Positions 2,057 through 14,712 of a stretch of DNA of 50,959 nucleotides are shown here, one piece after another. Position numbers and translations under genes: made by a program. The stretch's first letter is position 1. Every line of letters starts with the position of its first letter. Origin of the DNA: Syntrophomonadaceae bacterium (lineage in GTDB: Bacteria > Bacillota > Syntrophomonadia > Syntrophomonadales > Syntrophomonadaceae); NCBI GenBank assembly GCA_012520725.1, contig JAAYNQ010000027.1, positions 1 to 50,959 of the forward strand, in the 5' to 3' direction. The notes below the pieces were generated by a model. That model was given only the letters and a program-made list of their open reading frames with translations. It ran no database searches and had not been told where the DNA came from.

Positions 2057-4591
2057 GTGTTTTCCCGTTATAGACGATGTATTTATATAAGCAATACTTC
2101 GGAAAGAAGGTGCATCGCTACGAAAAAGCCCAAAACCCTCAAGCGCGAGCGAGTCAACCGCGCTTTGGAGAGTATCTTTGATTATCCAATGACCATTGTG
2201 GAGGCTCCCATCGGTTACGGGAAAACCACGGCAGTACGTGAATTTCTTGCCTTAAAAGGCACTCCCGTCATATGGACTTCCTTTTTATCCGAAGATGACA
2301 CGGCGCCGTGGTTTTGGGAAAGGTTTGCGGCCGAAATCGGTAAATTTGACCAGGCGGCGGCGATCAGGTTCCAAAAGCTCGGTGTTCCTTCCGATACACC
2401 ACAGACCGCAGCGGCTATCTCCATCCTCAACGAGATGGATTATAAACCCAATACTGTTCTTGACATCGATGATTTCCACCTTGCCAGAAGCATGCGGGTA
2501 ACCGCGCTTTTCAGGCGCTTTGTAATGGAAATGCCGGACGATTTTCACATTGTCATCTTGACCCGCGATACGACAAATCTAGATATCACCGAACTTTTCG
2601 TAAAAGGGCTGTGCAATGTCGTGCCGCAAAATACCCTGCGCTTTACCGACAGTGAGATTCGGGACTATTGCGCCCTGATGGGCTTCACAGCCAGCGAGAG
2701 CGAGATAAGAAAAGTCACCGATTACACGGGCGGCTGGATTTCACTGGTTTATCTGATCATGCTCGGAATGAAACAGGGTATCCCCCTGGACCGAAATGTT
2801 GCTATCAACGAGTTGGTGGAAAAGGTGCTCTATAACGCATACGACGAGCACATCCAAGGGTTTTTACTGCGTCTCTCCGTGATGGACAGCTTCACGGTGG
2901 AACAGGCTGTGTTTGTAACCCAGGAAGAAGAATCAGAGGAGACCCTCAAAAAGTTACGTCGGGAAAACGCATTTGTTACCTTCGACGAGGCAGCAGGGGT
3001 CTATAAGATCCACGCCGTGCTGCTGGATTTCCTGCGGGGCAAACAGAAGGATGCCGAAAAATGTGCCATGCTCTACCGGCGGCTTGGTGAATGGCACCTG
3101 GCGCAAAGGGAATATAGAACCGCATACGGCTATCTCTGCCGCGCGGGTGAGACGGAGCGCGTCCTGGCGCTGCTGGACAAAGAGGATACCATCACCAGTG
3201 ATTCCGCCACTTTTGACGGCGTTTTAGACCTATTCGCCGCATTGCCCCGGGAGATGCTTTTTAAGTATCCTCTTGCATATTTGCAGTACATCGCCATCAC
3301 TTTGACCAACGGCGATCTCGACGCTTTTCAGGATGGCGTTAAGCGCTTAAATGAGCTGCAGGAAGCTTGCGAGCGGGCGGTAGAACCTGTCCCGCACGGC
3401 AGAGACCGCGTTCTCGCAGAACTTTATCTTACCCGTATTTTTGCCGTGTTCAATGACGCCAGGGAAATGGCCGCTTGCATAAAGGAAGCACAGCGCCTGC
3501 TTAACGGGGATATTTCCTACCTGCAAAAGCGGGAGGCTGAGTTCACTTTGGGCTCTCCCCATTTTCTCTATACCTGTTACAGGGAACCGGGCAGCCTCAA
3601 AGAGCTCACGGAGATCATGGCATCGGATTTTCCGATTTTTGCCAAACTGGCCGACGGTTGTGGCACTGGCTGCGACTATGTAGCTCGGGCCGAATACGCC
3701 CTGGAGACCGGCGACTGGCAGGCGGCGGAGCTCAATGCCTTCAAAGCCATTTACAAAGCCCAGACCAAGGAACAGGTCGGTCTTATCATCTGCGCTTATC
3801 ATGCTTTGATCAGGCTGTATCTCTATCAGGGGAAAGTCGATGAAGCATTGGAGTTTCTGCGGCAGCTCAGGCAGGAGGTGACGCGAGCCAACAACATCTA
3901 TTACAACACCGGGCTTGAGATCGTGGAAGGATACGTTTACGGCTGCCTAAACCGCCTCGACAGCATCCCCCTGTGGCTGCAAACCGGAGATATGTCCCCC
4001 GCGCACTTTTTTTACCAGGGCCTGGGCTTCAACAATATCGTCTACGGCAAGGCGCTTTTGCTCGCCAAGAATTACATCAAGCTTGAAATACTCACTGATG
4101 AATTTGCCTGCTATTTCTCCATCTTCCACAATCAGCTCGGTTTTCTGCACAATCAGATATTAAGGGCAGCGGCAAGATATTACCTTTACGGCATGGAGGC
4201 GGGGTGCACCGCTCTGCGGAAAGCCTTTGACATGGCGCGGGAAGATCACATCATCCTGCTCTTCGCCGAGTATGCGCCCGCCGTCATAGACATGGTCAGG
4301 CACCTTGCCCATACTGATTCCCGGGACACATACCTAAAGGAGGTGCTTTTCGCCTGCGGGCAGTATATGGAGAGCCTGAAACACTCCTCCCAGAGCACGG
4401 TTTCCCTGTCAGCCAGGGAGCTGGAAATTCTCATCCTGGCTGCGGAGGGCCTTAAAAGGGAGGAGATCGCCCAAAGGCTTTATGTTACCCCAGGTACCGT
4501 GCAGCCCCATCTGCATAATATCTACCGAAAACTGGAGGTCAGCGGCAGGACAGCAGCGGTGAAAAAGGCCCAAAAACTGAAAATTTTATAA
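2057..4591 (+). CDS. LuxR family transcriptional regulator, MalT-like (LAL/STAND ATPase)
   Basis: Large regulator with an N-terminal P-loop (APIGYGKTT, residues 51-58), a central helical-repeat region, and a C-terminal LuxR/GerE helix-turn-helix from about residue 783 (LSARELEIL, then EEIAQRLYVTPGTVQ and HNIYRKLEVSGRT). This is the MalT/LAL architecture: ATP and an inducer drive oligomerisation and promoter activation. The start is uncertain. The listed GTG has no ribosome binding site, whereas GAAAGAAGG at 2102-2110 sits nine bases before an in-frame ACG at 2120 that would give a typical N-terminus (KKPKTLKRERV). The gene heads a module with DUF2442 and an SLH surface protein, so control of the surface protein is a reasonable inference. 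Codons look richer in G and C at third positions than in flanking genes, by eye. A decayed copy of its last 170 codons lies at 8474-8982. Confidence 0.88.
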   Translation: MFSRYRRCIYISNTSERRCIATKKPKTLKRERVNRALESIFDYPMTIVEAPIGYGKTTAVREFLALKGTPVIWTSFLSEDDTAPWFWERFAAEIGKFDQAAAIRFQKLGVPSDTPQTAAAISILNEMDYKPNTVLDIDDFHLARSMRVTALFRRFVMEMPDDFHIVILTRDTTNLDITELFVKGLCNVVPQNTLRFTDSEIRDYCALMGFTASESEIRKVTDYTGGWISLVYLIMLGMKQGIPLDRNVAINELVEKVLYNAYDEHIQGFLLRLSVMDSFTVEQAVFVTQEEESEETLKKLRRENAFVTFDEAAGVYKIHAVLLDFLRGKQKDAEKCAMLYRRLGEWHLAQREYRTAYGYLCRAGETERVLALLDKEDTITSDSATFDGVLDLFAALPREMLFKYPLAYLQYIAITLTNGDLDAFQDGVKRLNELQEACERAVEPVPHGRDRVLAELYLTRIFAVFNDAREMAACIKEAQRLLNGDISYLQKREAEFTLGSPHFLYTCYREPGSLKELTEIMASDFPIFAKLADGCGTGCDYVARAEYALETGDWQAAELNAFKAIYKAQTKEQVGLIICAYHALIRLYLYQGKVDEALEFLRQLRQEVTRANNIYYNTGLEIVEGYVYGCLNRLDSIPLWLQTGDMSPAHFFYQGLGFNNIVYGKALLLAKNYIKLEILTDEFACYFSIFHNQLGFLHNQILRAAARYYLYGMEAGCTALRKAFDMAREDHIILLFAEYAPAVIDMVRHLAHTDSRDTYLKEVLFACGQYMESLKHSSQSTVSLSARELEILILAAEGLKREEIAQRLYVTPGTVQPHLHNIYRKLEVSGRTAAVKKAQKLKIL

Positions 4592-4611
4592 TCTTTGTCC
4601 AAAATATACCA

Positions 4612-4627
4612 TTCGGTAGATACCGAA
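4612..4627. promoter_or_regulatory. palindromic TACCG/CGGTA element downstream of the LuxR gene
   Basis: TTCGGTA-GA-TACCGAA is a perfect inverted repeat 20 bases after the regulator stop. The equivalent place after the decayed LuxR copy (about 9000-9019) keeps TACCG-TT-CGGTA-GA-TACCGG, three alternating half-sites. Conservation next to two surface-protein modules suggests an operator or an RNA hairpin; binding by the LuxR protein is only a guess. Confidence 0.4.
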
Positions 4628-4639
4628 AATAAAAATCAT

Positions 4640-4666
4640 CCTCCATAATTAATATGGGGGTTTTTT
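4640..4666 (+). terminator. intrinsic terminator after the LuxR gene
   Basis: CCTCCAT pairs with ATGGGGG (4654-4660, one T-G wobble) around a short AT loop, followed by six T. It separates the regulator from the DUF2442/surface-protein genes. A homologous hairpin is at 9032-9063. Confidence 0.7.
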
Positions 4667-4761
4667 ATTCCCGGGGATGGGAAGTATGCCGCGGTGCCAT
4701 GGATGGCAGAGAGCGGCGAATGCCCAAATGTACCCCCAATCGGAAGGGGGGGGTTAATTCG

Positions 4762-5019
4762 ATGAATAAAATACTCAAGGTCACGCCCAATGACGATTAT
4801 ACCCTGTTGGTGGAATTTGAGCACGGCAACCAGATCATCTTCAATATGCGCGAAATCATAAAAACCATGCCTTTCAGCAGTCTTAAGGATTTAAGCCGCT
4901 TCAAAGACATCAGGCTGGAGGAAAAGGCCATATGCTGGCCGGAGCCGGTCCCGGACAAAAAAAGCATCATGCCCCTGCGCCTGACGGTGGACAACATGCT
5001 GTTCACAATAAGGGGTTAA
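4762..5019 (+). CDS. DUF2442 domain-containing protein, copy 1
   Basis: 85 residues beginning MNKILKVTPNDDYTLLVEFE, the typical start of DUF2442: a short beta-rich domain in which a substrate-free 'position, F/N, hold, W-P' pattern recurs (here IIFNMREII and AICWPEP). No biochemical role is established; relatives often sit in toxin-antitoxin-like or unknown operons. The ATG is chosen because GGAAGGGGGGGG lies just upstream; the longer reading frame from 4654 runs through the terminator region and is rejected. It stands 78 bases before the first SLH protein. A near-identical intact copy is at 11332-11589 and a frameshifted one at 9159-9431, each tied to a surface-protein gene, so the gene travels with that module. 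Confidence 0.8.
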   Translation: MNKILKVTPNDDYTLLVEFEHGNQIIFNMREIIKTMPFSSLKDLSRFKDIRLEEKAICWPEPVPDKKSIMPLRLTVDNMLFTIRG

Positions 5020-5096
5020 GAAGGAGAAAAGGATAATGCTGTTCACCCTACACGAATAAATTGAAATACAGAAAAAACAAAGAAAGGTGAATACTT

Positions 5097-8000
5097 ATGA
5101 TGAGAAAAAATTTAGTCTCATTTTTGCTGGCTACGGCCCTGATTATGCAAATAATTGTGGTAATAATACCTGCGACCCCCGCCTATGCAGACGGCTGGGT
5201 CGTCACTACCCTTGGTTCGGGCTTCAATGGCCCTTGTGGTGTAGCGGTGGACAGCAGCGGGAATATTTACGTTGCAGACTCTAATAATTATGCCATTAAA
5301 AGAATGGACGCAAGCGGGAATAATATTACTACCCTTGGTTCGGGCTTCACTTATCCTCTTGGTATAACGGTGGACAGCAGCAGGAATATTTACGTCGGAG
5401 AACCTACCAAAGATGCCATTAAGAGAATGGACGCAAGCGGGAATAATATCACTACCCTTGGTTCGGGCTTCGATCACCCTGAAAGCATTGCGGTGGATAG
5501 CAGTGGGAATATTTACGTTGCAGACACTTATAACAATGTCATTAAGAGAATGGACGCAAACGGTAATAATATCACTGAACTTGGTTCAGGCTTTTGGATG
5601 CCTTTTGGCGTAACGGTGGACGACAGTGGTAATATTTACGTTGCAGACACTTATAACAATGTCATTAAAAGAATGGACGCAAGCGGTAATAACATCACTA
5701 CCCTTGGTTCGGGCATCGAGTATCCTTGGGGTGTAGCGGTGGATAGCAGCGGGAATATTTACGTTGCAGACCACGGCAACAATGCCATTAAGAGAATGGA
5801 TGCAAGCGGGAATAATATCACTACCCTTGCTTCGGGTTTCAATGGTCCTCGTGCTGTAGCGGTGGACAGCAGCGGGAATATTTACGTTGCAGACGAATGG
5901 AACCATGCCATTAAGAAAATTTCATGGGCAACCACAGTAAACGCACGGGCACTGGATTCACTGGTAACAGCTCCAGGAACGGGAGCAACGCCAAGCACAC
6001 CGGCAATAAACCAGGCTCAGTATACCGGAACGGTTGCATGGTATGAATCCGATGGAATAACGGCAGTAACAGGGAACTTTGCAGAATCAACAGTATATGC
6101 AGCTAAAGTAACCCTGTCGGCAAAGGCGGGCTATACATTTACTGGTGTAGCACCAAACAGCTTCACCTACATAGGTGCAACAAGCGTAACCAATGCAGCA
6201 GATTCGGGAACAGTAACCATCACCTTCCCGGCAACGGCGGATATTACCCCTCCCACCGTCACCGGTGTAACGCCTGATGGCGCAGGCGTTTCTATAAGCG
6301 GCAATATTGCGATTACGTTCAGCGAGGCCATGGATAACACAGCGGCTGGCGCAGTGTACCTTTCTGATGATGGTGGGACAACCTATGATCCGGCTCTGAC
6401 CGGAGGAAGCTGGTCTGCCGGTGATACCGTTTACACTATTCCATACTCAGGTCTTTCCTACAGTACGGCATATACCGTTAAAATCCAAGGTTTCGAGGAT
6501 GTAGCGGGCCATACGATGGCCACCGACAGCACCCACAGCTTTACGACTTGCGTCGAGCCGATTATCCCCTCTGTATTGCCTGGTACCCTGACTTTTGACA
6601 AAGGCAGCACAGCAAGCTTTACCATAGCTTTGGGACAGGGAGCCAGTATGGCCACCAGTGCCGACATTACAGTGGCTAACGGCGGCATAGCCTCCGTCAG
6701 CCAGACTCAGGTTACCACGCCGGATACGATCACCGTCACCGGACTCAGCGTTGGGACAACCGATATTACCGTGGTTTTTAACAATACGGCCGCCACGACC
6801 GCAACGGTTTCTGTCACCGTGCAGGCGGTCCCCCCCACTTGGCCTTCCGGAAGCAGCCTGACCGCTTCGGGCGTAAGTCGCACGAATGCCGCCCTGACCT
6901 GGACGGCGGCGCAGGATATAACGGCAGTCACCGGCTATAAGCTTTATCAGGATGGGGTGGAAATCGACATGGTCGCAGGGGATGTATCCAACCACACGGT
7001 CACCGGTCTTTCTTCTGCCACCAGCTATACGTTCCAGGTGCAAGCCGGTAATGCTGACGGCCAGTGGACCACGAACGGCCCCACTGTCACGGTACAGACG
7101 CAGTCATCTGGTGGCGGTTCCAGAAACACTCCCTCCAAGCCGACCTACACCGCGGACGTCAAAGTCGACGGAGCCGATAACACCCTGACGATTACTGTAA
7201 ATATGGATACAAGCAGCGCAGCCGTCAATGTGGACACTCAGCAGGGCAATACCATCTCCGGAGGAGGAAATGTGGCCATCACGATGCCTTCCATTCCAGG
7301 TGTCAGCAGCTATTCCCTTGGCATCCCCGGAGCCTGTCTAACGACACCCGGCGGCGGATCACTGACCTTTAAAACAGATACGGGCAGCATCACTATTCCG
7401 GCGGATATGCTGGCGGGTATTTCAGGAGCAGAAGGCAGAAATGCGGCAATAACCATCGGACAGGGCGACAAGTCCGGTCTGCCTGACAGTGTAAAAGCTG
7501 CCATAGGCGATAGGCCGTTGATTCAGCTTTCCTTGACTTTGGAAGGCAAGCAGACCGACTGGAATAACCCTGACTCACCTGTCACCATATCTATATCCTA
7601 TACGCCGACGGCAGCGGAACTTGCTAATCCCGAAAGCATCGTCATCTGGTACATCGACGGCAGCGGCAACCTGGTATGCATCCCGAACGGGCATTATGAC
7701 CCTGCTACTGGCACGGTGACTTTTTCCGCCACCCATTTCAGCTTCTATGCTGTGAGCTATAACCCGGTGAGCTTCAACGACGTGGGGTCAACTGACTGGT
7801 ATTACAAGGCAGTGAGCTTCATCGCGGCGAGAGGCATCACCACGGGGACGGGAAGTGGTACGTTCAGTCCTGACCTCGTCCTCACGCGGGCCGACTTCCT
7901 GGTGATGCTGATGAAAGCGTATGGGATCGCGCCTGACACTAACCCGGCCGACAACTTCTCCGACGCGGGCAGCACCTACTATACGGGTTATCTGGCGGCG

Positions 8001-8312
8001 GCAAAGCGGCTCGGAATTTCAGCAGGTGTAGGTAACAATCTGTATGCGCCAGGCAAGGAAATTACCCGTCAGGAAATGTTCACGTTACTGTACAACGCAC
8101 TCAAGGCGCTGAACAAACTCCCCGCCGCCGATAGCGGCAAGACCTTGGAGAACTTCATTGACCAGGGCGATGTGGCAATCTGGGCTACCGAAGCCATGAC
8201 GCTCCTGGTAAAGTCCGGCATGGTTTCCGGCAGTGATAGTAAGCTTGACCCCACAGGCGGTTCCACCCGCGCTCAAATGGCGCAGGTGCTGTACAATCTG
8301 CTGGGAAGGTAA
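5097..8312 (+). CDS. secreted SLH-domain protein with NHL-repeat propeller and Ig/FN3-like domains
   Basis: 1071 residues. A signal peptide occupies residues 1-31 (ends ATPAYA). Residues about 36-280 are six near-identical 41-residue NHL-type repeats (core GVAVDSSGNIYVAD, then AIKRMDASGNNI), expected to form a six-bladed beta-propeller. Next come a bacterial repeat domain (about 285-380), an SbsA-type Ig domain (about 382-485), a further Ig-like region, a fibronectin type III domain (about 580-675), a glycine-rich linker with a beta-rich domain, and three SLH domains from about 892 to the end (FNDVGSTDWYYKA, NFSDAGSTYYTGY, ENFIDQGDVAIWA). SLH domains anchor proteins to pyruvylated wall polymers, so the protein is displayed at the surface; the propeller probably binds a ligand or partner. 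AAAGG lies nine bases before the first of two ATGs. It follows LuxR and DUF2442 genes. Confidence 0.9.
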   Translation: MMRKNLVSFLLATALIMQIIVVIIPATPAYADGWVVTTLGSGFNGPCGVAVDSSGNIYVADSNNYAIKRMDASGNNITTLGSGFTYPLGITVDSSRNIYVGEPTKDAIKRMDASGNNITTLGSGFDHPESIAVDSSGNIYVADTYNNVIKRMDANGNNITELGSGFWMPFGVTVDDSGNIYVADTYNNVIKRMDASGNNITTLGSGIEYPWGVAVDSSGNIYVADHGNNAIKRMDASGNNITTLASGFNGPRAVAVDSSGNIYVADEWNHAIKKISWATTVNARALDSLVTAPGTGATPSTPAINQAQYTGTVAWYESDGITAVTGNFAESTVYAAKVTLSAKAGYTFTGVAPNSFTYIGATSVTNAADSGTVTITFPATADITPPTVTGVTPDGAGVSISGNIAITFSEAMDNTAAGAVYLSDDGGTTYDPALTGGSWSAGDTVYTIPYSGLSYSTAYTVKIQGFEDVAGHTMATDSTHSFTTCVEPIIPSVLPGTLTFDKGSTASFTIALGQGASMATSADITVANGGIASVSQTQVTTPDTITVTGLSVGTTDITVVFNNTAATTATVSVTVQAVPPTWPSGSSLTASGVSRTNAALTWTAAQDITAVTGYKLYQDGVEIDMVAGDVSNHTVTGLSSATSYTFQVQAGNADGQWTTNGPTVTVQTQSSGGGSRNTPSKPTYTADVKVDGADNTLTITVNMDTSSAAVNVDTQQGNTISGGGNVAITMPSIPGVSSYSLGIPGACLTTPGGGSLTFKTDTGSITIPADMLAGISGAEGRNAAITIGQGDKSGLPDSVKAAIGDRPLIQLSLTLEGKQTDWNNPDSPVTISISYTPTAAELANPESIVIWYIDGSGNLVCIPNGHYDPATGTVTFSATHFSFYAVSYNPVSFNDVGSTDWYYKAVSFIAARGITTGTGSGTFSPDLVLTRADFLVMLMKAYGIAPDTNPADNFSDAGSTYYTGYLAAAKRLGISAGVGNNLYAPGKEITRQEMFTLLYNALKALNKLPAADSGKTLENFIDQGDVAIWATEAMTLLVKSGMVSGSDSKLDPTGGSTRAQMAQVLYNLLGR
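5205..5930 (+). repeat. six tandem 123-bp repeats encoding NHL blades
   Basis: Units start at about 5205, 5328, 5451, 5574, 5697 and 5820, each 123 bases (41 codons) and beginning ACTACCCTTGGTTCGGGC. The units are nearly identical at DNA level, including synonymous sites; the changes fall mostly in the short segment between the glycine pair and VAVDSSGN and in the segment after VAD. This points to recent expansion or homogenisation. Confidence 0.9.
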
Positions 8313-8336
8313 AACGTGAATAAGACTCTGAATAGC

Positions 8337-8377
8337 AGCAAGCCCACAGGCATTTTCAGCTTGTGGGCTTGCTTTTT
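8337..8377 (+). terminator. intrinsic terminator of the first SLH gene
   Basis: AGCAAGCCCACA (8337-8348) pairs perfectly with TGTGGGCTTGCT (8362-8373), followed by a run of T. It lies 25 bases after the stop codon. Confidence 0.9.
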
Positions 8378-8473
8378 CAACCCAAGGGGACGGCAGACTG
8401 TGTGAAAAATCGAGTCATTCTTAACATTAAAATGGTATACAATGGTAAACCGTAAAGGACAGTTTATCCTGAG

Positions 8474-8982
8474 ATATTGACTTGGTACACTGATTTTGCC
8501 CGCTATTTCGTCATCTTCCACAACCAGTTGGGTTTTCTGCACAATCAGATTTTCAGGGCGGCGGCGGCATATCAGCTTAATGGCATGGAGCAAGGCTGCA
8601 CCGCTCTTCGCAAAGCCTTCGACATGGCGCGGGAGGATCACATAATCCTGCTCTTCGCCGAGTATGCGCCTGCCATTATAGACAGGTCAGGCACCTGGCT
8701 CGTGCTGATTCACGGAACGCATACCTAAAGGAGGTGCTTTCTGCCTGAGGGCAGTATATGGAGAGCCTGAAACACTCCGCCCGGAGCACGGCTTCCCTGT
8801 CGGCGAGGGAGATGGAAATCCTTACCATGGGCGCGGAAGGCTTCAAGAGGGATGAGATTGCCGAAAAACTTTTTGTTGCCGACGGCACCGTGCAGACCCA
8901 TCTGCATAATATCTACCGAAAACTGGAGGTCAGCGGCAGGACGGCGGTGGTAAAAAAGGCGCAAAACCTAAAGCTTATATAA
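8474..8982 (+). pseudogene. 3' remnant of a second MalT-like LuxR regulator
   Basis: Matches the last 170 or so codons of the regulator at 2057-4591. The first part (to 8728) keeps FHNQLGFLHNQIFRAAA and FDMAREDHIILLFAEYAPA, then a one-base deletion (GACATGG to GACAGG) breaks the frame. The second part, readable from 8758 to 8982, keeps the whole helix-turn-helix (LSAREMEIL, GTVQTHLHNIYRKLEV). The 5' three quarters of the gene is missing. A free 74-residue helix-turn-helix protein could in theory start at ATG 8758, but the nearest AAAGGAGG is 23 bases away, so expression is doubtful. The homology runs on into the downstream palindrome, terminator and DUF2442 copy, showing that a whole module was duplicated and then decayed. 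Confidence 0.88.
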
Positions 8983-9031
8983 TTTTCCGTGCAAAATATA
9001 CCGTTCGGTAGATACCGGAATCAAAAATCAT

Positions 9032-9063
9032 CCTCCATACTTATTAGTATGGGGGATTTTTTA
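9032..9063 (+). terminator. intrinsic terminator, second module
   Basis: CCTCCATAC (9032-9040) pairs with GTATGGGGG (9047-9055), followed by ATTTTTTA. It is the homologue of the terminator at 4640-4666, with one more base pair. Confidence 0.7.
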
Positions 9064-9158
9064 TTCCCAGGGATAGGAAGTATGCCGCGGTGCCATGTAC
9101 GGCAAGGAGCGGCGAATGCCCGAAATATCATACAAATCCGAAAGGAGGGTTTCATTCC

Positions 9159-9431
9159 ATGAGTAAAATACTCAAGGTCACACCACTGACGATTATACCC
9201 TGCTGGTGGAATTCGAGCACGCAATAAGATCCCTTCAATATGCGCGATATTATAAAAACCATGCCTTTCAGCAGCCTAGCGAATCTGAGGCGCTTCAAGG
9301 ACATCACGGTGGAGGAAGAGGCCATATGCTGGCCTGAGTCGGTCCCGGACGAAAAAAGCATCGTCCCTCTGCGCCTGATGGTAGACACTGTGCTGTTCAC
9401 CATACGGGAATATTACAATAAATTAAAGTGA
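9159..9431 (+). pseudogene. DUF2442 copy 2, frameshifted
   Basis: Starts ATGAGTAAAATACTCAAGG behind AAAGGAGGG, like the intact copies. It has lost single bases near 9185 (ACACCCAATG has become ACACCACTG) and around 9227-9236 (GAGCACGGCAACAAG has become GAGCACGCAATAAG and the following bases are altered). The second half reads again in frame from 9240 (MRDIIKTMPFSSL) to the stop at 9429 and gains a few extra C-terminal codons (EYYNKLK). No full-length product can be made. It sits nine bases before the second surface-protein gene, as in the other modules. Confidence 0.85.
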
Positions 9432-9440
9432 GGTGGGATT

Positions 9441-11303
9441 ATGAAAAATAAGAAATTGTTAATTAGAATTATGGCTATTTTTCTGGCTCTTTGCTTCTTT
9501 CCAAATATGGCCACACGAGCAGCGGACTATAATCTGTTAGTGCCGGCCGGAGCTTTGACTGCGCTGAATAACGGAGATCTTATCTATGAAGGGGATACAA
9601 TATCTGATATAGACGCCACAGGATTGATTGTTGGCTATTTTGATTATGATTACTCATTTTTGGACAGTTATTCCGTTTCACCTGCTTCACATACTGTATT
9701 AGGAGCCGCGGATGTCGGGGCAGCAGATCCGGGCGGGGATCAAAAATTTGTTGGCTGGCTGGTATCAAGCATTGATATCAGTGGACCCTCTTCCCTTAAT
9801 CTGACCGCATACTGGGAGAAAGCCTATAATGTAACCTATAACCTGAACGGCGGCAGCGGAACCATACCAGTTGACAGCAATCTCTATTTACCGGGGGAAG
9901 CGGTAGCGTTAAATGACGGCAGCGGCCTGAGCTGGCCAGGCCACACTTTTTTAGGATGGGCAACGGACCCTGTTGCAACGGATCCTTTACCTTCCTACAT
10001 TATGGATCCTGATAGCAATGTCCTGTACGCGGTCTGGGCAAGCACCTATACTGTAACCTATGACGGCAACGGTAACGATGGGGGCAGTGTTCCGGTTGAC
10101 GGCAAAAACTATCTGCCCGGTAATGAAGTTACCGTACTTGATCCCGGCACCCTTACCAAAAGCGGCTATGCCTTCTCCAGCTGGAGCGATGGGACGGTTA
10201 CATATACCGCTGGAGATAAATTTGCCATGAGTTCAGCTGATGTAACGCTGTACGCGGTCTGGAAGAAGAAATCAAGCGGCGGCGGAAGTACAACAATAGC
10301 GTCATATACTCTGAGCTATGACAGTAACGGCGCGGTCTCTGGAACGGTACCGGCCTCAAAAAGCTATACTAAGGGAAGTACGGTAACCGTCAGCGGCAAC
10401 ATAGGCTCACTTGCAAAAAGCTGCTGCAAGTTCTCCGGCTGGAACTGCGAACCCAACGGGAGCGGAACCGCTTACGCCGAGGGCGACACGTTTACCATGG
10501 GGAGTAGTAATGTCGTCCTTTATGCCCAGTGGGAAAAAATAAAAATTGTTTATGACAAGGACAAATGGGGACGTTACAACTACTATAATGTCGCTTATTC
10601 AACTTCCGACGGAAAAAACACTATCGTGCCCACAAGCTATTATTACGAACCCACCAATTCGGTGTTGTATAAGACTCCGCAAGCCGGTACATATGATGCC
10701 ATGTATAGTTTTGTCGGTTTTGACGATATAACCGACAGTCATTGGGCAAGCGGATTTATCTGGTTCCTCTCGGCCAGGATTATAGTCAACGGGATAGGCA
10801 ATGATCTGTACGATCCTGAAGGTAGCATTACAAGAGCTCAGTTTATCAAAATACTGACGTGCATGACTCCCGGCATCGATTTGTCATCCGTTCCTTCGAC
10901 GGGTTTCCTTGACGTTTCTCCCGACGACTGGTACGCGAAGTATATCGACTGGGGCTATGAAAACAACATTGTATTTGGTTACAGCAACGGCTGTTTCGGG
11001 CCAAATGATCCGATTACTCGCGAGCAAATGTGCTGTATGATCGCAAGGTACTGTAATTATCTCGGCTATGAGTTGGGAGAAATCAACGACTCAAAGACCT
11101 TTCTGGATCAGGGCAGCATAAGCTCATGGGCTGTGGGCGATGTGGACGCCCTTCAAAAATCGGGGCTTATCGAGGGCGACGACAATAATATGTTCAAACC
11201 CCGGTCCTTATCCACAAGAGCCCAGGCAGCGTCAATCGCATGCAGGCTGCTGATGGGGATCCTGGACGCCATGGTTGAACCTGAAAGCATCCCCTGCAAC
11301 TGA
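9441..11303 (+). CDS. secreted SLH-domain protein with InlB/Listeria-Bacteroides-type repeats
   Basis: 620 residues. The signal peptide is residues 1-28 or so (ends ATRAAD). Three repeats of the InlB B-repeat (Flg_new) type follow, at about 130-200, 201-276 and 285-368, each running from V/L-T/S-Y-x-x-N-G through a GYxFxxW-like core to LYAxW. A tyrosine-rich segment links to three SLH domains (about 425-610; DVSPDDWYAKYIDW, KTFLDQGSISSWAV). SLH domains bind secondary wall polymers; the InlB-type repeats are short beta-grasp-like modules common in surface and adhesion proteins, so a surface binding role is inferred. The ATG has GTGAGGTGGG just upstream. It shares its position in the module, but not its ectodomain, with the NHL-type protein at 5097-8312. 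Confidence 0.88.
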   Translation: MKNKKLLIRIMAIFLALCFFPNMATRAADYNLLVPAGALTALNNGDLIYEGDTISDIDATGLIVGYFDYDYSFLDSYSVSPASHTVLGAADVGAADPGGDQKFVGWLVSSIDISGPSSLNLTAYWEKAYNVTYNLNGGSGTIPVDSNLYLPGEAVALNDGSGLSWPGHTFLGWATDPVATDPLPSYIMDPDSNVLYAVWASTYTVTYDGNGNDGGSVPVDGKNYLPGNEVTVLDPGTLTKSGYAFSSWSDGTVTYTAGDKFAMSSADVTLYAVWKKKSSGGGSTTIASYTLSYDSNGAVSGTVPASKSYTKGSTVTVSGNIGSLAKSCCKFSGWNCEPNGSGTAYAEGDTFTMGSSNVVLYAQWEKIKIVYDKDKWGRYNYYNVAYSTSDGKNTIVPTSYYYEPTNSVLYKTPQAGTYDAMYSFVGFDDITDSHWASGFIWFLSARIIVNGIGNDLYDPEGSITRAQFIKILTCMTPGIDLSSVPSTGFLDVSPDDWYAKYIDWGYENNIVFGYSNGCFGPNDPITREQMCCMIARYCNYLGYELGEINDSKTFLDQGSISSWAVGDVDALQKSGLIEGDDNNMFKPRSLSTRAQAASIACRLLMGILDAMVEPESIPCN

Positions 11304-11331
11304 TGATAACAGGAAAGGAGGGTTTTACTAG

Positions 11332-11589
11332 ATGAGTAAAATACTCAAGGTCACACCCAATGACGATTATACTCTTTTAGTCGAATTCGAGCACGGCAAC
11401 AAGATCATCTTCAACATGTGCGAAATCATAAAAACCATGCCTTTCAGCAGTCTGGAGGATTTAAGCCGCTTCAAAGACATCACGCTGGAGGAAAAGGCCA
11501 TATGCTGGCCTGAGCCGGCCCCGGACGAAAAAAGCATCATGCCCTTGCGCCTGACGGTGGACAACATGCTGTTCACCATACGCGGATAA
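11332..11589 (+). CDS. DUF2442 domain-containing protein, copy 3
   Basis: 85 residues, differing from the copy at 4762 by only a handful of substitutions (N-terminus MSKILKVTP, then IIFNMCEII, AICWPEPAPDEKS). Strong AAAGGAGGG precedes the ATG. It follows the second surface gene by 28 bases and is in turn followed by the broken beginning of another surface gene, so this module lost its large partner. Intactness despite loss of the partner suggests either very recent loss or a role of its own. Confidence 0.8.
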   Translation: MSKILKVTPNDDYTLLVEFEHGNKIIFNMCEIIKTMPFSSLEDLSRFKDITLEEKAICWPEPAPDEKSIMPLRLTVDNMLFTIRG

Positions 11590-11692
11590 ATTAGGAAAAA
11601 CAAAGAGAGGTGAATACTTATTAATGAAAAAAATTAGTCTCATTTTTGTGGGCAGCGTTCCTGATTATGCAAATAATTGTGGTACAGCGTGA
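11590..11692 (+). pseudogene. 5' remnant of an NHL/SLH surface-protein gene
   Basis: The first hundred or so bases after the DUF2442 stop match 5060-5163, that is the ribosome binding site (GAGAGGTGAATACTTA) and the signal-peptide coding start of the first SLH gene, ending at AATAATTGTGGTA. Small indels change the frame, so only a 22-codon ORF starting at 11624 remains. The match stops abruptly and joins a different duplicated sequence (see next entry). Confidence 0.8.
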
Positions 11693-11957
11693 AGCTCTGC
11701 CATCCTTGCAGGATCCCCAGCTTATTAAAGATATACTGTGGTCCACATAAAACTTGCAGTTGACTTATATCCTTCAATTATAGGAAGGACCCTGTGGTAG
11801 ATACAGACACTATATTTAACACTTCCTATTTATTAACATAAACATCAGAAGGCACCCTGAAATCTCCGGGTGCCTTTAAAATTTCCCGGATCTGGCCCAA
11901 ATTATTTGCCAGATAATGAAAGTTATCATGATAAGACCACGTACGTAGAATTGCCCA
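11686..11957 (+). pseudogene. internally deleted copy of the 3' end of the YcdB/SLH gene plus its downstream region
   Basis: Bases 11690-11772 match 13754-13835 inside the intact YcdB-like gene; about 680 bases are then missing; 11773-11957 match 14515-14699, covering the last codons, the stop, the terminator (AAGGCACCC/GGGTGCCTT at 11849-11876) and the 75 bases after it. The match ends at TAGAATTG. So an ancestral tandem pair of YcdB/SLH genes existed and the first member has been replaced by the surface-protein island. Confidence 0.88.
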
Positions 11958-12337: not shown

Positions 12338-14545
12338 ATGATGATGAAGAAGGTATTTGCAGTACTACTGGCCTTTGCCGTGCAATTCACTATCTGGCCG
12401 GCTTTGTCTACAGCCAGCGGGGAAGAGCTCAAGATAGTACCAGAGCCCGTCTCGGCAATTACTGTGAACAGTAAGACAATAAGCTCACAACAGGCCATGG
12501 AGATATTTTGTTCCACTTTTCCGGAAATTACTGCGAATCGAAACCTGGTGGCAGAATTGGATGAATACGCAGGAAATTCACTTTGGCGCATCTATGAAGC
12601 AGATCCCATCGGCCTACACTCCTACCGGGGGCAGCAGGTTGGGGGGCAAATCGATGCAGCAACTGGTGAAATCCAGAGCTTTAATTATAATCCAGGTCCA
12701 GATTATTACCAGTGTCAAAGGGTGACTCTTACCCGGGAGCAGGCCAAAGCACTAGCCCTTAAATTCCTGCAGGAAAAACAACCCGTAAAATATGAGCAGC
12801 TTCTGCTTCGGGATGATCTGCCTGCATCTATCCCCAGTCGCTATCTGAATCTGAGCTATACTTTCAACTGGCAGCGCCAGGTTAATGGAACAGCTATTGA
12901 CTACGACAGTATTAGCGTAGGGGTGAACGCTTACACCGGTCAGATTACCCAGTATCATTGCAATTGGCATGAACTTGAACTTCCGGTGGAGAAGAACTTG
13001 ATTTCGCCCCAGCTTATGGCCCAACAGCTACAAGAACAGATCGATCTGCTGCCCTGTTATACCGAAGAACTGGATTCCATGGGACAAAGAACTGGAAGGA
13101 TGGTTCCAAGCTATCGCCTGAATATTAGTGCCCAGCTAGTTGATGCTCGTACCGGCCAATTTCTGGATTATCTGGGCCGGCAGCTGGGCGATACCGTTCC
13201 CAGGCTATATGAACAGGATTTTGTACCCCTGCTCAATGCCCCGGCCATTAACCAAACCCCTCAGCCCCAGAACTATGTCGATCCGGAGGCAGCTTTGCAA
13301 GCTGCCCGGAACTTCTTTAGCCAAATGGGTTATAACGGACCCATCCGTAAGAGTGGGAGCGGAGGCTCCAGCGGAGGTGGAATAAAGGAGGAACACTGGT
13401 CCTATAGCCTGCAGAACCCAAATGAGGGCCGTTTGAGGGTAGAGGTTAATGCCTATACCGGCGAGGTAATCGGTTTTAATGATGAGGATTATAGTAACAC
13501 ATTGATTGAGCCGGTAATGAGCTATGCCCAGGGCCGAGATTTAGCCCTGGCGGCTATTGAGAAGTATGATCCCGACAAGGTTGAACAGGTGGCATTTTGC
13601 CAAAGCAATTGGGAAGACGACCGGGGCTATTACCATTACCAATTTGTACGCCTGGTTAATGGAATCCCCTATAACCGGGATAGTATCAACATAACCCTGG
13701 ATGGAAGCACGGGCAAGGTAGCAAGCTATTTGAAGCAATGGCGTCCGGTCCAGTGTGAAGCTCTACCACCCTTGCAGGATCCCCAGCTTATAAAAAATAA
13801 ACTGTGGTCCACCCAAAACTTGCAATTAAGTTACATTCTGGCCCGAGATGATCAGTATGTCCCTTTGGGAGAGAGTATCCCAGTCTACATAATTCCCTAT
13901 ACGGAATTTAATGCGGTAAGCGGCGAAGCCCTAATAAGCTCCCAAGCACCCCAACCCGGCCAGGATGAAGCTGAACCGTGGAAGGACCACTGGGCCGCCC
14001 CTTCATTGTCATTATTAAAAAGCAATGGCTTGACTCCTGAAAGCACAGCACCGGATGAGGCCATGACCAGACGTGAGATTCTGAAGATTTTGGTTCTGGC
14101 CACCAATCCACGGGACTATTATGGAGATGAACAGAAGATAGAGCTGGCTCTGGCCGATATCGCCCCGGATGATCCCGATTTAAGTATTTTCAAACTGGCC
14201 ATCCAACGGAATATCATTGCCAATACGGGGGAATTCAGACCTGATGAAGCCCTTAGCCGGGAAGAGCTGGCCATCTGGTTGGTCAACAGTCTGGGCCTAC
14301 AGGAAATAGCCCGGATTCCCAACCGCATCGACACCCCCTTTCGAGATGCCGGGCAAATAGCGGCCCATAAATCTAATTACCTGGGCCTGGTATTTGGATT
14401 AGGTTTGCTAACCCCTGATTCCAAAGGAAACATCAGACCTCAAGAAAAGGTAAGCTGGGCCCAAATGGCATCGGTAGCAGGCCGTTTGGCTCCCCGGGCA
14501 TTGGCGTATCCCGGCCCTTCAATTATAGGAAGGACCCTGTGGTAG
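12338..14545 (+). CDS. YcdB/YcdC-like secreted protein with C-terminal SLH domains
   Basis: About 735 residues. Signal peptide (KKVFAVLLAFAVQFTIWP, ending near STASG), then repeated PepSY/YcdB-like units recognisable by NAYTGQITQY, DARTGQFLDY, NAYTGEVIGF and DGSTGKVASY, then three SLH-like domains from about residue 545 (WKDHWAAPSLSLL, DIAPDDPDLSIFKLA, FRDAGQIAAHKSNYL). The PepSY/YcdB fold is linked to inhibition of peptidases or to wall functions, but its role is not established; SLH domains place the protein on the cell wall. Three consecutive ATGs (12338, 12341, 12344) follow AAAGGAG, so the ATG at 12323, which precedes that site, is not used. A deleted copy of its 3' end lies 2 kb upstream. 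Confidence 0.85.
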   Translation: MMMKKVFAVLLAFAVQFTIWPALSTASGEELKIVPEPVSAITVNSKTISSQQAMEIFCSTFPEITANRNLVAELDEYAGNSLWRIYEADPIGLHSYRGQQVGGQIDAATGEIQSFNYNPGPDYYQCQRVTLTREQAKALALKFLQEKQPVKYEQLLLRDDLPASIPSRYLNLSYTFNWQRQVNGTAIDYDSISVGVNAYTGQITQYHCNWHELELPVEKNLISPQLMAQQLQEQIDLLPCYTEELDSMGQRTGRMVPSYRLNISAQLVDARTGQFLDYLGRQLGDTVPRLYEQDFVPLLNAPAINQTPQPQNYVDPEAALQAARNFFSQMGYNGPIRKSGSGGSSGGGIKEEHWSYSLQNPNEGRLRVEVNAYTGEVIGFNDEDYSNTLIEPVMSYAQGRDLALAAIEKYDPDKVEQVAFCQSNWEDDRGYYHYQFVRLVNGIPYNRDSINITLDGSTGKVASYLKQWRPVQCEALPPLQDPQLIKNKLWSTQNLQLSYILARDDQYVPLGESIPVYIIPYTEFNAVSGEALISSQAPQPGQDEAEPWKDHWAAPSLSLLKSNGLTPESTAPDEAMTRREILKILVLATNPRDYYGDEQKIELALADIAPDDPDLSIFKLAIQRNIIANTGEFRPDEALSREELAIWLVNSLGLQEIARIPNRIDTPFRDAGQIAAHKSNYLGLVFGLGLLTPDSKGNIRPQEKVSWAQMASVAGRLAPRALAYPGPSIIGRTLW

Positions 14546-14594
14546 CTACAAATGCTATATTTTTCGCTTCCTATTTATTACCATAAACATCAGA

Positions 14595-14626
14595 AGGCAC
14601 CCTGGAATCTCCGGGTGCCTTTAAAA
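14595..14626 (+). terminator. intrinsic terminator of the YcdB/SLH gene
   Basis: AAGGCACCC (14595-14603) pairs with GGGTGCCTT (14613-14621), followed by TTAAAATTT. The same hairpin is present in the duplicate at 11849-11876. Confidence 0.85.
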
Positions 14627-14712
14627 TTTCCCGGATCTGGCCCAAATTATTTGCCAGATAATGAAAGTTATCATGATAAGACCACGTACGTAGAATTGAA
14701 GGGGGATTACGA

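Follow-up and report, generated by a model that had tools for sequence, protein, structure and literature searches.

Tandem genes for a LuxR-type regulator, a DUF2442 protein and a secreted surface protein raise the question of whether this combination is an accident of one locus or a functional unit and, in the latter case, which part each gene would play. The array lies in the window (the whole stretch of DNA analysed here, 50,959 nt), which corresponds to contig C128 in the draft assembly (2.64 Mb) of a relative of Syntrophomonas. A search of the open-licence literature found no paper on the LuxR–DUF2442–surface combination, its promoter rule, or a role of DUF2442 outside toxin-antitoxin pairs, in line with the preliminary description of the locus, which knew of no system of this make-up. 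The parts are of known kinds; their combination, the promoter rule and a role of DUF2442 other than in toxin-antitoxin pairs are apparently undescribed.

Three partial module copies in the window

The window contains three tandem, partial copies of a module of MalT-type LuxR, DUF2442 and secreted SLH protein, all on the forward strand, and only copy 1 is complete. Copy 1 comprises a gene for a MalT-type (STAND) LuxR activator (2057..4591), a DUF2442 gene encoding 85 aa (4762..5019) and a gene for a secreted surface protein with an NHL propeller, Ig-like (Big, fn3) domains and a C-terminal SLH region (5097..8312), followed by a strong terminator-like hairpin read directly from the sequence (8338..8377). 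The NHL part contains six tandem 123-bp (41-aa) repeats at 5203-5940, the central units of which are about 79-84% alike and form a predicted propeller. In copy 2, luxR is reduced to a pseudogene of its final 168 codons (8471..8982, residues 677-844) with one 1-nt deletion and an in-frame TGA, and the DUF2442 pseudogene (9159..9413) carries three 1-nt deletions and a TAA, but the reading frame of the gene for a secreted InlB-repeat/SLH surface protein of 620 aa (9441..11303) is still open. Copy 3 consists of an intact DUF2442 gene (11332..11589), which begins 29 nt past the SLH stop codon, and about 60 nt of the 5′ end of an NHL-type surface gene (11624..11684). This stub is joined, with a 4-bp overlap (GGTA), to a truncated copy of the neighbouring downstream YcdB-SLH gene. 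The truncated second YcdB/PepSY-SLH copy occupies 11681-11953 and 13747-14698, its pieces being 85% and 95% identical and separated by an internal deletion. All gene calls of the preliminary description, as well as the damage that it reported in copies 2 and 3, were reproduced; two details of its account were corrected, as the NHL-type stub ends at 11684 and the canonical start codon of the copy-1 luxR is ACG, which makes its translation start doubtful.

Copies 1 and 2 are 84.7% identical from the 3′ end of luxR through DUF2442, and their surface proteins share just 29% identity, confined to a 212-residue SLH part, which bears out the earlier observation that the surface proteins differ. Overall, the three copies are 84-92% alike, and alleles from other Syntrophomonas species are just as close to them; the array is therefore not a fresh expansion, and the earlier term 'expanding' does not apply at this locus. 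Judging from these identity levels, which rule out a recent in-situ duplication as the origin of the array, the copies are old alleles, of which copies 2 and 3 are decaying. The nearest LuxR to that of the window was found in Syntrophomonas sp. DTU019 (88%), and searches of phage (DNA) and plasmid (protein) collections returned no match.

The copy-1 LuxR contains a C-terminal GerE helix-turn-helix (HTH) domain (PF00196, 53.2 bits) and a MalT-like N-terminal NTPase and TPR region (PDB 8bob residues 26-407, 1.5e-17), as expected for a MalT-type (LAL/STAND) LuxR, with a TPR_MalT match of 29 bits, under that family's cut-off of 45. With 176.4 bits against a cut-off of 537 bits, it is outside the NCBIfam MalT equivalog. 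It shares with E. coli MalT the NTPase-TPR-LuxR HTH architecture and the 8bob and NCBIfam matches in the N-terminal half; unlike MalT, it has a predicted dyad operator at about -43 and the adjacent surface operon as its predicted target. The gene has a dN/dS of 0.22 versus the DTU019 locus, L027. At its homologous start near 2120 (2110-2130) it has ACG, as opposed to ATG in the close relatives L027, L028 and L031. ATG is also absent from the same codon in S. palmitatica and L029, and the sole in-frame start codon upstream of the ACG is GTG at 2057. The window's one full-length regulator may be weakly translated, or the ACG may be an assembly error in the draft genome.

Distribution of the module and its exchangeable surface proteins

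A search of genome contigs with the DUF2442 protein identified 13 loci, mostly with the order LuxR–DUF2442–secreted protein, in Syntrophomonas, Pelotomaculum, Thermincola, Peptococcaceae, Clostridium carboxidivorans and others; S. palmitatica JCM 14374 and C. carboxidivorans P7 are among the strains with the module. Furthermore, a profile built from LuxR-linked DUF2442s was run against 398 Bacillota genomes, a sample in which the window's own family is over-represented, and yielded a clear upper group (≥69 bits) with 27 matches outside the window's own genome. A MalT-type LuxR gene adjoins 25 of these 27 LuxR-type DUF2442 genes, the two exceptions being L062, which lies at a contig edge, and the gene in the second cassette of the G037 array, whose luxR is found further upstream by one cassette. 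In 26/27, the next gene encodes a secreted protein. Together with the lower-scoring L158, the 27 loci represent 13 families. Among 30 canonical DUF2442 loci used as a control, none has a LuxR neighbour and 23 have DUF4160 beside them (Fisher's exact test for LuxR adjacency, LuxR-type versus canonical, 3.5e-14). Judged by this comparison, the LuxR–DUF2442–surface gene order is a conserved, widespread module rather than a local accident. The preliminary description had taken the array for a family of cassettes that vary the surface protein under a MalT-type regulator, a view that the survey supports, and had named a chance-level association as evidence against it; in related genomes, DUF2442 lies beside surface genes clearly more often than chance. 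The tandem arrangement also has an independent counterpart at L139 in G037, which reads luxR, DUF2442, a 1467 aa surface protein, operator, DUF2442 and surface protein, and another DUF2442 match was found there at C1:1222234.

The smallest surface protein of the module has 257 aa and the largest about 2350 aa. Their domains are of the NHL, InlB/Flg_new, Big, fn3, beta-helix, GLUG, legume-lectin, pectate-lyase-like or PKD type, in many cases together with SLH. Both surface proteins of the window match the SLH domain (PF00395) and have hydrophobic N-termini, read from the translations, that indicate signal peptides. The constant parts and the surface proteins can differ sharply in conservation: in the pairs L029/L031 and window/L032, the LuxR proteins are 79-83% and the DUF2442 proteins 79-86% identical, and the surface proteins have no detectable similarity. 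In addition, the NHL-SLH gene is a mosaic relative to its DTU019 counterpart (L027), with third-position identity of mostly 80-97% up to a breakpoint near aa 720 and about 40-55% thereafter; the same ectodomain is therefore attached to a different anchor allele. These comparisons support domain exchange among surface proteins, and rapid switching of surface proteins is unsupported. SLH-domain surface proteins of Bacillota in general share with those of the module a signal peptide, Ig-like, InlB, NHL, lectin or beta-helix ectodomains and an SLH anchor; what sets the module's proteins apart is their link to a dedicated regulator-DUF2442 unit that has a predicted operator of its own.

Predicted operators and promoter geometry

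The intergenic palindrome and terminator that the preliminary description had reported as conserved between copies 1 and 2 are real (operator, 0 chance matches in 100 shuffles), and in each cassette they resemble an operator and promoter. In copy 1, the putative operator P1 (ATACCATTCGGTAGATACCGA, 4606..4626, dyad centre 4612/4613) precedes the luxR terminator hairpin with T-tract (4636..4667), which holds a putative -10 box of the DUF2442 operon (CATAAT, 4644-4649). Likewise, in copy 2 the putative operator P2 (ATACCGTTCGGTAGATACCGG, 8998..9018) is followed by a hairpin with T-tract (9030..9062) that holds a putative -10 box (CATACT, 9036-9041). All group-A modules contain TACCGTTCGGTAGATACCGG or a variant in the luxR–DUF2442 gap and then a hairpin with T-tract, and the dyad centre lies 31 nt (12/13) or 30 nt (1/13) from the -10-like hexamer in the hairpin.

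Other LuxR branches have different dyads, namely ATCGTCC..GGACGAT, ACTACCC..GGGTAGT, TATC..GATA, ATCCCCCATATGGGGGAT, GTACATCGTAC and GTGAC..GTCAC. With the -10 hexamers chosen by eye inside the hairpins before the spacing statistic was calculated, the best dyad lies 30.5-31.5 nt upstream of the -10 box in seven of eight unrelated operator families, compared to at most 4/8 in 1000 shuffles. The exception is operator family G2 (AAAAATGGTAYTTTT; L153, L162), whose dyad, in both members, is some 37 nt away from the -10 box; in L162, luxR sits downstream of the surface gene. No clear dyad was found at L064. At two loci where luxR is divergent (L150, L151), dyad and spacing are retained and a hairpin is absent, so the hairpin is most simply a luxR terminator and the dyad and -10 box the promoter of the DUF2442 operon. 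The putative -10 box would usually be embedded in the luxR terminator hairpin. The spacing from the -10 box places the dyad centre at about -43, over the -35 region and close to the -42 typical of class II activation. A centre near -43 is the usual location for a LuxR-type class II activator.

Within group A, a TACC half-site is associated with the LuxR recognition helix GTVQ.HLHNIY and a GCC-like half-site with (G/A)T(V/I)K.HL(E/Q/A)N(I/V)Y. This pairing holds in 17/17 modules (Fisher 8e-5, kinship ignored); on the tree, the Q/K co-variation may go back to no more than one or two evolutionary changes. We strongly infer that LuxR binds the dyad. A search of the window's own genome identified exactly two operator sites, both within the array, with none in the reversed control and no further site that would indicate a regulon outside it. 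In S. palmitatica, too, there are two sites: the first accompanies a luxR module, the other a DUF2442 cassette that lacks luxR. Likewise, the G037 array carries a separate operator at its second cassette, where luxR is missing. At three mismatches, operator matches were obtained in G014 and G030. One regulator appears to serve several cassettes in trans, with window copies 1 and 2 sharing one LuxR, which would explain how copy 2 could lose luxR yet keep operator P2 and its surface gene.

Proposed mechanism, rival explanations and DUF2442

The comparison shows gene order and promoter geometry, as predicted from sequence, to be conserved, and the locus is probably a self-contained surface-display module in which LuxR is the dedicated local activator of DUF2442–surface operons. 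The MalT-type (STAND) LuxR would sense some signal and oligomerise, bind the dyad about 43 bp upstream of the operon start and activate the operon, while the luxR terminator hairpin, usually holding the -10 box, would block read-through from luxR into the operon. DUF2442, as the first product, would be a small adaptor, most likely providing feedback on expression, for instance through binding to the activator, in the way MalY acts on MalT, or alternatively monitoring the surface protein; the second product would be a large, exchangeable, secreted protein, often SLH-anchored. In the window, a single LuxR would control two operator-bearing cassettes, the second of which has a decayed luxR and DUF2442 and retains its operator and surface gene. 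Operon activation, transcription of its two genes as one unit and the part played by DUF2442 are inferred steps. If so, a private regulator, operator and promoter could be predicted for many giant 'hypothetical' SLH and adhesin-like genes of Clostridia, and the operator rule, by which the dyad sits 31 nt ahead of the -10 box and varies together with the recognition helix, would allow regulons to be predicted from sequence. It would also explain the exchange of surface functions along with their control in anaerobes, syntrophs included.

The hairpin and dyad could instead form a transcribed leader in which DUF2442 or LuxR controls read-through from luxR to the surface gene by antitermination. 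Such RNA attenuation would account for the retention of a hairpin with T-tract in nearly all modules and is consistent with the 174-nt intergenic RNA, which folds slightly better than its shuffles (z -2.0), but it is improbable given the hairpin-free divergent loci, the co-variation of the LuxR HTH with the dyad, and a dyad to -10 distance that stays constant while the hairpin loop varies; moreover, no Rfam family reached its gathering score. The array could also be a phase- or antigenic-variation locus, its surface proteins switched by within-strain recombination, as the partial copies with differing ectodomains and common 5′ ends and the mosaic surface gene might suggest. We consider this very improbable, since no recombinase was noticed next to the array, the copies are as old as species-level alleles, the copy-3 stub is just 60 nt long and a second intact regulator is lacking.

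The remaining alternatives to the activator-controlled module, or to parts of it, concern DUF2442. DhiT/DhiA (DUF4160/DUF2442) is a type II toxin-antitoxin system, in which the antitoxin DhiA lowers its own promoter by about 50% (PMC8198452). The window DUF2442s narrowly pass the PF10387 gathering score of 23.9 bits (28.6 for copy 1, and 24.6 bits), and LuxR-linked DUF2442s align, weakly, with the first 57 of 160 DhiA model positions alone, scoring 20.9 bits against an equivalog threshold of 200 bits. This shared Pfam family and DhiA match would suit a stray antitoxin, a DhiT/DhiA remnant hitch-hiking beside a surface gene. With a single DUF4160 seed, however, no DUF4160 toxin was matched at the LuxR-type loci, which accordingly do not classify as DhiTA; the partner of the module's DUF2442 is an activator or a two-component system in place of DUF4160. 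The position of DUF2442 is conserved across 13 families and its copies are under purifying selection (dN/dS 0.08-0.16; 0.08-0.13 for copy 3), and we give the remnant explanation very little credence. The family would gain a testable role beyond toxin-antitoxin pairs.

In MalT, inhibitory partner proteins such as MalY are known, and MalY holds MalT inactive (PMC10427625). By this analogy, our leading guess, a tentative one, is that DUF2442 is a feedback inhibitor of the LuxR protein. Its main rival, with the rest of the module as proposed above, is that DUF2442 serves the surface protein and not the regulator, either as its partner in the cytoplasm before export or as a translational coupler. 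At L163, L164, L166 and L167, a histidine kinase/response regulator pair accompanies DUF2442 and a giant surface gene, so that the DUF2442-surface pair persists with LuxR replaced, and 4-nt gene overlaps occur in L163, L168 and L169. Nevertheless, the surface proteins lack a shared domain for one DUF2442 to recognise, and at L155-L157 DUF2442 is fused to a receiver domain beside chemoreceptor-type genes, in chemotaxis-like clusters without a surface gene, which makes a surface-protein partner rather unlikely. Given its other contexts, next to two-component systems or in fusion with receiver domains, DUF2442 need not act on LuxR; it is a conserved partner, as the preliminary description had it, albeit one not tied to LuxR alone. 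An AlphaFold model of DUF2442, from just 14 close sequences, reached a pLDDT of 42, and a DUF2442 profile matched nothing convincing among PDB sequences.

The related contexts point to a signalling adaptor, with the two-component, double-domain and receiver-fused assignments of several relatives resting on N-terminal sequence and context. DUF2442 could well prove to be of a newer kind. Possibly, and we advance this with reserve, a DUF2442 branch that split from toxin-antitoxin proteins is a general signalling adaptor in Bacillota, linking as obligate co-regulator a sensor (MalT-type LuxR, two-component system or chemotaxis-like receiver) to an exchangeable giant surface protein; through horizontal spread, the three-gene module would then let anaerobes swap surface functions under a private regulator-operator pair. 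The four two-component loci look like the same module with another regulator type. Furthermore, L160, L161 and L168 encode two DUF2442 domains in a single protein, and the receiver-DUF2442 fusions at L155, L156 and L157 may represent a new output domain of chemosensory systems.
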